Assembly (NCBI GenBank): GCA_021734045.1
Contig: JAIPJR010000064.1
Span: 1 to 14,734 of the forward strand
DNA: 14,734 nucleotides
Direction: 5' to 3'
Source of the DNA: Fidelibacterota bacterium
Lineage (GTDB): Bacteria; Fidelibacterota; UBA8477
Below are positions 285 through 5,317 of this stretch, in pieces (positions within the stretch are counted from its first letter, which is position 1; every line of letters starts with the position of its first letter). Both the position numbers and the translations under genes were made by a program. The notes below the pieces were generated by a model. The model did no database searches, was not told where the DNA came from, and was given only the letters and a program-made list of their open reading frames with translations.

Positions 285-728
285 TTAGCCCTTGATGACC
301 CAGACCTTGATCTCAGCCTTGACATCTGTGGCAATCTTGATAGGGACATTATAAATTCCCAACGCCTTGATGGGCTCATCCAGGAGAATGTCCCGCTTAT
401 CCACTTCAATCCCCTTTGCGGCGATCAGATCGGCGATATCCTGGGCTGTTACAGCCCCAAAGACCTTATCGTCTTCGCCTACCTGTACCGTGGCTTCCAG
501 GGAGAGATTCCCCAGCTTGGCGGCCAGGGCGTGTGCCTTCTGCAGGTCACGGGCAGCCTTGGTCTCCCGCAGTGCCTTCTCCTGCTCATAGACTTTTAAA
601 AAGCCCTTGGTGGCCGGATAGGCGATTTCCCGGGGAATCAGGTAATTACGACCATAACCGTCCTTCACATTGACGATTTCACCGGCACTACCCAATGTAT
701 CCACATCTTTCCGAAGAATGACTTTCAT
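285..728 (-). CDS. rplI: 50S ribosomal protein L9
   Basis: L9 of the large ribosomal subunit, an elongated two-domain protein that binds 23S rRNA near the base of the L1 stalk. The length of 147 residues is normal for the family. The N-terminal domain starts MKVILRKDV and carries the L9 signature at about residues 13-40 (GSAGEIVNVKDGYGRNYLIP). A long charged connecting helix follows at about 43-75, and the C-terminal domain contains KVFGAVTAQDIA at 88-99. The ATG at 728 is preceded by a GGAAGGAG ribosome binding site at about 739-746. It is the last gene of the rpsF-rpsR-rplI run, 25 bases after rpsR, and is followed by a strong terminator. Nothing is missing or broken. Confidence 0.98.
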   Translation of the reverse strand: MKVILRKDVDTLGSAGEIVNVKDGYGRNYLIPREIAYPATKGFLKVYEQEKALRETKAARDLQKAHALAAKLGNLSLEATVQVGEDDKVFGAVTAQDIADLIAAKGIEVDKRDILLDEPIKALGIYNVPIKIATDVKAEIKVWVIKG

Positions 729-753: not shown

Positions 754-990
754 TTACACGTTTTTTATATCAGAAGCATAGGCCAGCAGCGCGATATTGC
801 GGGCACGTTTAATAGCTGTGACTAATTGCCGCTGATGACTGGCGCAGGTGCCGGTGATTCGGCGCGGCAGGATTTTGCCCTCTTCCGTAAGAAAGCGCTT
901 AAGCGTAGAGGGGTTTTTGTAGTCTAAAACCACATCTTTGTTTTCGCAGAACTTACAGATCTTCCGCTTGTATTGCATTTTAAAACGCAT
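754..990 (-). CDS. rpsR: 30S ribosomal protein S18, zinc-binding type
   Basis: S18 of the small subunit, which binds as a heterodimer with S6 at the platform. It has 78 residues. The core [19 protein letters not shown] at about 38-56 and the following [11 protein letters not shown] are diagnostic. Cys12 and Cys15 (CKFC) plus Cys49 and His52 (CASH) make a plausible CxxC...CxxH zinc site, so this is the cysteine-retaining form rather than the cysteine-free paralogue used under zinc limitation. The ATG at 990 has an AAAGGAAA binding site eight bases upstream. A second in-frame ATG at codon 5 lies closer to the usual S18 start, but the outer one has the better spacing. A promoter candidate lies just upstream in the rpsF-rpsR gap. 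No ssb gene sits between rpsF and rpsR, although many bacteria have one there. Confidence 0.97.
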
Positions 991-1042
991 GTTTAATTTC
1001 CTTTCTATCCAACACCACTGGTGAGATCGGATCCTGTCATTT

Positions 1043-1080
1043 TTTTAAAATTATACCAAAAAACGACTTCCGAAACCGTG
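1043..1080 (-). promoter_or_regulatory. Candidate internal promoter for rpsR-rplI (extended -10)
   Basis: The 109-base gap between rpsF and rpsR contains, on the minus strand, TGGTATAAT: a perfect -10 hexamer (complement of 1050-1055) with the TGn extension (1056-1058). No good -35 hexamer is visible 16-18 bases further upstream, which fits an extended -10 promoter. Initiation would fall near 1043, giving a leader of about 50 bases. This would let S18 and L9 be made independently of the long-tailed S6. A perfect small palindrome, CACCACTGGTG at 1012-1022, lies inside that leader. Confidence 0.5.
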
Positions 1081-1099
1081 GGCTGATAGCGTGACAGGC

Positions 1100-1798
1100 T
1101 TACGCCTCTTCTTTTTTGTCATCCACATCTTCGCCTGCATCGGCGTCAGTGTCAGTGTCAGCCTTGTCGTCGTCGCTTTCATCCTTGTCTGCTTCTTCAT
1201 CAGCGTCCGTCGAATCGACTTTAGATTCAGATTCAGATTCTGAATCTTCGCTATCACTGGATTTTTCTGCGACGGGAGCATCTGCTGCTTCCGGCTCAGT
1301 TTCAGCAGCCGGAGCTGCTGCTTCTTTAACGTCGGAATCGGATTCACCCTCCAGATCGGCACCTTCAGCCTCATCGTCAGAATCAGCGCTGCGGGGTCTG
1401 CGGCTATATGAATCCCGGTCCCGTGAGCGGGAATCATCATAGCGGGAACGGCCACCGCGGCGATCGTCTTCGCTTTCATCTTCCGGGATCATGACCTTAT
1501 CAAATTCCGGCATTTCATCCAACCGCACGGTCAGGTATGCCAGGACGCTGTCGTCCAGTTCGAGACTTCGTTGTAAATCCGTGATCTTGGGGGCTTCACC
1601 ATTCAGATGCATCAGGACATAATTGCCATACTGCTGCTTCTGGATCTGGTAAGCTAAACGACGTTTTCCCCAGTGTTGAATGTTTGCGACTTCGGCGTCC
1701 GCTTCTTTCACGTAACCAGTCACTTTTTCAATCACAGTGGAGATGCCGTCCCCATCGAAATTGGGATTTACAATGAAGAGACATTCGTAATTACGCAA
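1100..1798 (-). CDS. rpsF: 30S ribosomal protein S6 with a long acidic C-terminal tail
   Basis: S6 binds S18 on the small-subunit platform. Residues 1 to about 100 are a normal S6 fold: RNYECLFIVNP at the start, WGKRRLAYQIQKQQYGNYVL at 43-62, then SVLAYLTVRLDE. Family members are usually about 95-140 residues; this one has 232. The extra part has an Arg/Ser/Asp-rich stretch at about 112-138 (RSRYDDSRSRDRDSYSRRPR) and then about 95 residues made almost only of Asp, Glu, Ser, Ala and Lys, certainly disordered. The start codon is TTG at 1798; it matches the conserved S6 N-terminus and has a near-perfect Shine-Dalgarno sequence. The gene follows hppA by 16 bases. The core identification is certain; the role of the tail is unknown. 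Confidence 0.96.
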   Translation of the reverse strand: MRNYECLFIVNPNFDGDGISTVIEKVTGYVKEADAEVANIQHWGKRRLAYQIQKQQYGNYVLMHLNGEAPKITDLQRSLELDDSVLAYLTVRLDEMPEFDKVMIPEDESEDDRRGGRSRYDDSRSRDRDSYSRRPRSADSDDEAEGADLEGESDSDVKEAAAPAAETEPEAADAPVAEKSSDSEDSESESESKVDSTDADEEADKDESDDDKADTDTDADAGEDVDDKKEEA

Positions 1799-4645: not shown

Positions 4646-5317
4646 CTACGCTTCATCCTTATCGGATTCTTCGTCTTCACCCTCTTCGGTGCCCTCTTCA
4701 GCTTCCTCGCCTTCTTCACCTTCTTCGCCTTCTTCTTCTTCCAGAACCGGCGTTTCAATTTCCATCTTCTGAGGTGGCTGAACCGAAACCAGCGTGACAT
4801 CTCCAGACTCTAATATGGTCCAGATTTCAGACTCAAGATCACGGATATGGATTGCGTCACCGATGTTCATATCGGCAACATCCAGCTCAATATGTTCGGG
4901 AACATCAGAACCCTTACAACGGATGGTGAGCTCATGGATGGTTTGCTGCAGAACGCCACCCTCGTCTTTTACACCAGCAGGCGTGCCTTTAATGATGAGC
5001 GGCACTTCAATCTCCACAATATCGCGGAGGCGGACACCGTGCAGGTCTATGTGCAGTACTTTTTCTGTAACCGGATGATACTGAATCTCTTTAATGACGG
5101 CACGCCGCTGTTCGTCATTAATGTGAATATTGAAAATGCGCTCACCGGACCGGAGTGCTTCCCGGACATCGGCATATGACATTTTCAAAGGCACCGCGTC
5201 AGTACCATGTGAATAAAAAACCACCGGCACCCAGCCATCAGCCCGCAGCTTCTTAATGGCGGTTTTGCCATTTTCAATCCGCTCGTGGACCTTTAATTCA
5301 TACCTTGTTTCTGCCAT
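4646..5317 (-). CDS. rplY: 50S ribosomal protein L25 (Ctc/TL5 type) with acidic tail
   Basis: 5S rRNA-binding protein of the large subunit, of the long Ctc/TL5 form. Residues 1 to about 95 are the L25 5S-binding domain, including VPVVFYSHG at 30-38 and an IKEIQYHPVTEKVLHID segment at 75-91. Residues about 97-185 are the TL5 beta-domain. Residues 193-223 are almost entirely Glu, Gly and Asp. The frame is open up to 5428, but the ATG at 5317 is chosen because it starts the conserved MAETRYELKV and has GAGGAAGAGG nine bases upstream; the longer frame would overlap prs. The length of 223 residues is normal for the Ctc form. It lies between prs and pth, the usual bacterial order. Confidence 0.96.
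   Translation of the reverse strand: MAETRYELKVHERIENGKTAIKKLRADGWVPVVFYSHGTDAVPLKMSYADVREALRSGERIFNIHINDEQRRAVIKEIQYHPVTEKVLHIDLHGVRLRDIVEIEVPLIIKGTPAGVKDEGGVLQQTIHELTIRCKGSDVPEHIELDVADMNIGDAIHIRDLESEIWTILESGDVTLVSVQPPQKMEIETPVLEEEEGEEGEEGEEAEEGTEEGEDEESDKDEA

Follow-up and report, generated by a model that had tools for sequence, protein, structure and literature searches.

Ribosomal protein bS6 with a long acidic tail in a Marinimicrobia genome, and its relation to other acidic ribosomal tails of the phylum

The stretch of DNA analysed here (14,734 nucleotides; hereafter the window) belongs to a Candidatus Neomarinimicrobiota (Marinimicrobia) MAG that is 92% complete. Its minus-strand frame 1100-1798 encodes a bS6 protein of 232 aa. 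The gene, rpsF, starts with TTG, and a GAGGAGG Shine-Dalgarno (SD) motif stands 7 bases ahead of this codon. Residues 3-92 cover the Pfam model Ribosomal_S6 (PF01250) in full (positions 1-90 of 90; 88 bits against a cut-off of 27; E 4e-25), and the NCBIfam equivalog TIGR00166 matches residues 1-94 with 73.8 bits against a cut-off of 42.9. The genes rpsR and rplI lie directly downstream, giving the neighbourhood rpsF-rpsR-rplI. The features of the window referred to below are:

285-728, minus strand: rplI (bL9), of ordinary length (Pfam PF03948 and PF01281)
754-990, minus strand: rpsR (bS18), the next gene, encoding the partner of bS6 (Pfam PF01084, E 7e-27)
1103-1387, minus strand: acidic low-complexity end of bS6, residues 138-232 (net charge about -35, 0 Arg, 7 Lys)
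1388-1465, minus strand: Arg-rich patch of bS6, residues 112-137, DRRGGRSRYDDSRSRDRDSYSRRPRS, with 10 Arg and no Lys (from composition and comparison within the order)
1466-1516, minus strand: conserved linker of bS6, residues 95-111, EMPEFDKVMIPEDESED (identity 0.84 in the genus, 0.81 in family f2)
1517-1798, minus strand: bS6 core, residues 1-94 (PF01250, TIGR00166, TTG start and GAGGAGG)
4646-5317, minus strand: bL25/CTC with an acidic tail of about 40 residues (PF01386 and PF14693, the second match ending at residue 183 of 223)

In many bacteria ssb is located between rpsF and rpsR. No ssb is found there in the window, the gene being present on other contigs of the genome; it is gone from the rpsF operon in the window's order and in most families seen, and is kept between rpsF and rpsR in loci L044, L047 and L048 (families f26 and f27). 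Since these loci retain ssb yet have S6 tails of 70-87 aa, loss of ssb was rejected as the cause of the long tail. No Rfam match to an S6:S18 leader RNA was found near rpsF, and the gap between hppA and rpsF is only 16 bases. The antisense frame 1116-1442 (plus strand) was set aside as a mere mirror of the repetitive S6 tail. Of 52 rpsF loci of the phylum, 47 have a non-ATG start (mostly TTG, some GTG) behind a strong SD sequence; conservation of so weak a start could help to set the dose of this abundant protein.

Beyond the core, bS6 continues for 138 residues (95-232; window 1103-1516, minus strand), so that it reaches 232 aa against the 131-135 aa of full-length E. coli S6 chains in the PDB, a C-terminal addition of more than 20 aa. 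The initial annotation had recognised a long tail following the core, but let it start at residue 112 and thereby omitted the linker. The acidic stretch of about 95 residues that it described is borne out: it comprises the 95 residues 138-232, among them 7 Lys and not a single Arg, and closes with KKEEA. In the last 40 residues Asp and Glu together reach 53%, compared with 11.5% in the sampled proteome, an acidic composition far beyond chance. The tail had also been described as disordered. The charge-hydropathy index, -0.56 for the tail versus +0.10 for the core, agrees with this; AlphaFold, run on three sequences, returned a mean pLDDT of 48 and did not resolve even the core (about 50). The tail is thus probably disordered, as judged from its composition. 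Short in-frame repeats are found in the window (AGATTC x3, GTCAGT x2.8) and longer ones in relatives (VEDVVEDVV in L041, DDKDVE in L007). In L041 (genus g2; 995-1645, plus strand) the tail is almost pure VEDVVEDVV, a sign of codon-repeat expansion.

Alignment of relatives, as the initial annotation had proposed, showed in-frame tails of similar length in two congeners and 18 further members of the order; the long tail is therefore not an assembly error. It is encoded, in frame, and present through the order. A region-by-region comparison of 17 species of the sister family f2 gave identities of 0.87 for the core, 0.81 for the linker, 0.62 for the Arg patch and 0.40 for the acidic part, with dN/dS values of 0.07, 0.08, 0.29 and 0.32, respectively, the value for the acidic part being only indicative owing to uncertain alignment and synonymous changes near saturation. 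The genus shows the same gradient (linker 0.84, acidic part 0.32), and identity between the window genome and its nearest relative is 98% in the S6 core and 37% in the acidic part. The acidic part thus retains 32-40% identity in genus and family, with about 0.2 gaps: its composition is kept, its sequence is not. Identity returns to 0.79 over the last 11 residues in f2, whose S6 mostly ends in ADAE. In genus and family f2, dN/dS is 0.06-0.08 for the linker versus 0.07-0.10 for the core; by this measure, constraint on the first 17 residues past the core matches that on the core itself.

Arg occurs only in the patch beside the linker; the acidic end has none. The 21 S6 proteins of the order contain 150 Arg within the first 45 tail residues; in the 1727 tail residues past that point there are 96 Lys and 0 Arg. 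This absence is partly expected from mutation, because Arg codons are two steps away from most Asp and Glu codons and Lys codons one step from those of Glu. At least four Arg occur in the patch region in 20 of the 21 order members, and none in L041. Outside the order no comparable Arg patch was found, the first 20 residues of 66 tails containing 43 Arg versus 148 Lys. On this comparison of sequences, the linker motif and the Arg patch are limited to the window's order. The possibility that the Arg patch replaces bS21 was rejected, bS21 being present in the window genome and in nearly all of the order.

The initial annotation considered an S6 tail longer than the domain itself unusual. This holds against model bacteria, where matching S6 chains of solved ribosomes measure 90-140 aa, but not within the phylum. 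Among 110 S6 proteins sampled phylum-wide, the tail has a median length of 68.5 aa (10th-90th percentile 19-128, range 9-154) and attains at least 40 aa in 87 (79%), every one of which has a net negative charge. The longest tails of the phylum, 96-154 residues, are those of the 21 S6 proteins from the window's order. A long acidic S6 tail is normal for this phylum, not peculiar to the window genome, and the proviso that most S6 proteins of the phylum should not be equally long holds only in part. Families f8, f14, f28, f29 and f31 manage with just 9-23 residues, so members of the phylum can do without a long tail; tails in f15 measure 10-43 residues. Family f31 (tails of 13-20 residues) often has two bS21 genes, nearly all other families one.

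The Asp+Glu fraction of the phylum's S6 tails is 0.389 ± 0.080. It does not follow the GC3 of the core (rho 0.04, p 0.70, with species that are not independent) and stays constant across core GC3 from 0.13 to 0.70; with rising GC3, Ala goes up and Lys+Arg and hydrophobic residues go down. Neutral drift is expected to let tail Asp+Glu approach proteome levels. We read the independence from GC as selection on tail charge, and from these sequence comparisons the S6 tail seems to be retained for its charge: sequence and length are constantly rebuilt, with Asp+Glu held at about 35-45%.

A loose acidic-tail test was applied to a sample of the window genome (about 0.70 Mb, 574 ORFs). Four ORFs passed: S6, L25, S16 and a small non-ribosomal ORF. 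With three of the four ribosomal, acidic tails in this sample of the genome are nearly restricted to ribosomal proteins. The bL25/CTC tail (window 4646-4765) is Glu/Gly-rich and acidic. The bS16 protein has 220 aa, about 135 past the usual core length. Stop-to-stop open frames of bS16 span 111-466 codons across the phylum, and Ala/Glu/Lys-rich tails of about 100-290 residues were seen in the loci read (L081:1039-1701, minus strand; L084-L095); measured against its own core, the bS16 extension exceeds that of S6. In bL17 (183 aa) the end is Lys-rich, then acidic. Cytidylate kinase (Cmk) is fused ahead of bS1 in a frame of 1104 residues (L184:1142-4456, plus strand), and this is the frame with S1 domains that scores above the rpsA cut-off; it has a long acidic insert between the domains and a tail that is Lys-rich, then acidic. 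In bS16, bL17 and the Cmk-bS1 fusion, too, the acidic end comes after a stretch that is near-neutral or basic. The lengths of the S6 and S16 tails do not correlate (rho -0.16, p 0.16, the stop-to-stop S16 frames being noisy). For want of correlation, a common length control of the two was rejected, and a single shared pressure is not evident.

The reading that we favour, tentatively and with somewhat less than even confidence, is that an ordinary bS6 core bears a long, probably disordered polyanionic tail which is part of a lineage-wide set of acidic tails (bS1, bS6, bS16, bL17 and bL25) and would serve as an electrostatic brush. This reading includes a module of linker and Arg patch, specific to the order, that would sit on S6 at the platform and has a putative function. 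In E. coli, the mobile tails of S6 and S18 contact S1, and in Pseudomonas the addition of four Glu to RpsF alters translation (PMC7343187). In Flavobacterium, the platform pocket that holds the 16S 3' tail has bS6 at its border (PMC9976891). Binding of bS1 beside bS18 and bS21 has also been described (PMC10123108). Under the favoured mechanism, the linker would lie as a strand in a fixed position on the surface of the platform. The Arg patch would touch nearby rRNA or mRNA in the surroundings of the 16S 3' end, S18, S21 and S1, and the acidic end would project as a brush, making unspecific RNA contacts weaker and preventing ribosomes and mRNA from sticking. The tail would then correspond to the glutamate tail made by RimK in other bacteria, except that it would be written permanently into the gene. 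A wider version, in which the ribosome surface throughout the phylum is covered by encoded polyanionic brushes (on bS1, bS6, bS16, bL17 and bL25) and one order has equipped S6 with a fixed linker and, near the mRNA exit, a patch rich in Arg that touches RNA, strikes us as doubtful. If true, the brushes would amount to a built-in, constitutive setting of mRNA recruitment and ribosome spacing, comparable to RimK modification elsewhere.

The strongest rival is that the tail has merely been tolerated: codon-repeat slippage would lengthen an exposed C-terminus, and selection would purge only sticky (hydrophobic or Arg) residues, leaving acidic filler without a positive job. The in-frame repeats of the window and the long ones of L041 and L007 speak for such growth, as do the fast indels and the dN/dS of about 0.3 in the acidic part and the unrelated lengths of the S6 and S16 tails. 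Tolerated growth leaves unexplained, however, why the linker is constrained like the core, why the last 11 residues are conserved in f2 and why Asp+Glu is constant over the whole GC3 range. For the acidic part alone it is a possible explanation, if not a probable one. A different account, unlikely in our judgement and built on analogy, makes the tail an encoded substitute for RimK glutamylation, by which the recruitment of S1 and mRNA at the platform would be tuned permanently, much as added Glu may tune it in Pseudomonas. S6-tail charge has indeed been tied to S1/Hfq and translation (PMC7343187), the window genome's bS1 is itself unusual (Cmk fusion, acidic insert and tail), and RimK was not found in this genome above the curated cut-off (best 39.5 bits versus 143.4), although at 92% completeness a RimK gene may have been missed. 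Among the 23 genomes of the order, however, four (G227, G229, G236 and G237) combine a RimK-family protein above the cut-off, by profile score alone, with a long tail; thus the two are not exclusive. The comparison with RimK drawn in the initial annotation is therefore apt as an analogy, but not borne out in the window genome itself, whose S6 ends in KKEEA and lacks a Glu-Glu acceptor end.

Charge balance for growth at high salt, also put forward at the outset, fared worst. It would place the tail within an acidic, salt-in proteome, for which we would expect a proteome-wide shift to a median pI of about 5 or lower. The tail is acidic, and one congener (record Tobar14m, a name that we take to refer to a lake whose deep water is saline) possibly points the same way. 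But the sampled proteome (545 ORFs) is bimodal, with a median pI of 5.93, only 17% of proteins below pI 5 and 29% at or above pI 8, and is not salt-adapted; acidic tails are a feature of ribosomal proteins, not of the proteome at large; and congener CG1_02_48_14, presumably from an aquifer, has an equally acidic tail. Salt adaptation is hence a very improbable cause.

Known systems resemble the one described here in part. RimK-glutamylated S6 of E. coli and Pseudomonas likewise has an acidic, mobile C-terminus near S18 and S1; in the window S6, by contrast, the charge is gene-encoded, the tail is far longer, no RimK was found in the genome above cut-off and a terminal Glu-Glu is missing. In Bacteroidia, a platform pocket of bS6, bS18 and bS21 sequesters the anti-Shine-Dalgarno sequence (PMC9976891). 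The same proteins occupy the same place here, bS21 included, but SD use has not been lost: SD-like 5-mers occur in 79 of 539 upstream regions versus 22 in shuffled ones (start codons not curated). Together with the strong rpsF SD, this enrichment makes constitutive anti-Shine-Dalgarno sequestration unlikely. Within the genome, the acidic or Ala/Glu-rich tails of bL25/CTC, bS16 and bL17 are similar in composition to the S6 tail, the basic patch of S6 having Arg where the bL17 tail has only Lys.

The closest published parallel is Mycoplasma pneumoniae, in which ribosomal protein extensions, that of S6 included, are mostly predicted to be disordered; that study finds extensions in this sense (more than 20 aa past the E. 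coli end) throughout bacteria (Xue et al. 2022; PMC9534751), and Marinimicrobia may already have been counted in the survey. Both organisms have a C-terminal extension on bS6 and on several other ribosomal proteins. In the M. pneumoniae S6, where residues 1-167 are resolved, the proximal extension adopts secondary structure and a loop that can be traced (PMC9534751); the window S6 differs from it in its linker, Arg patch and long acidic end, the linker motif and patch belonging to one order only. Our literature search returned nothing specific on Marinimicrobia ribosomal C-terminal extensions or acidic bS6 tails. Such extensions are common in bacterial ribosomal proteins and mostly without known function, and the phylum offers a natural series, with S6 tails of 9-154 residues, bS16 frames of 111-466 codons and the linker and Arg patch in one order. 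Constant charge despite sequence turnover leads to the testable prediction that net charge, not sequence, is selected. Extended ribosomal proteins, S6 among them, are already known, and the S6 layout described here is a further variant.
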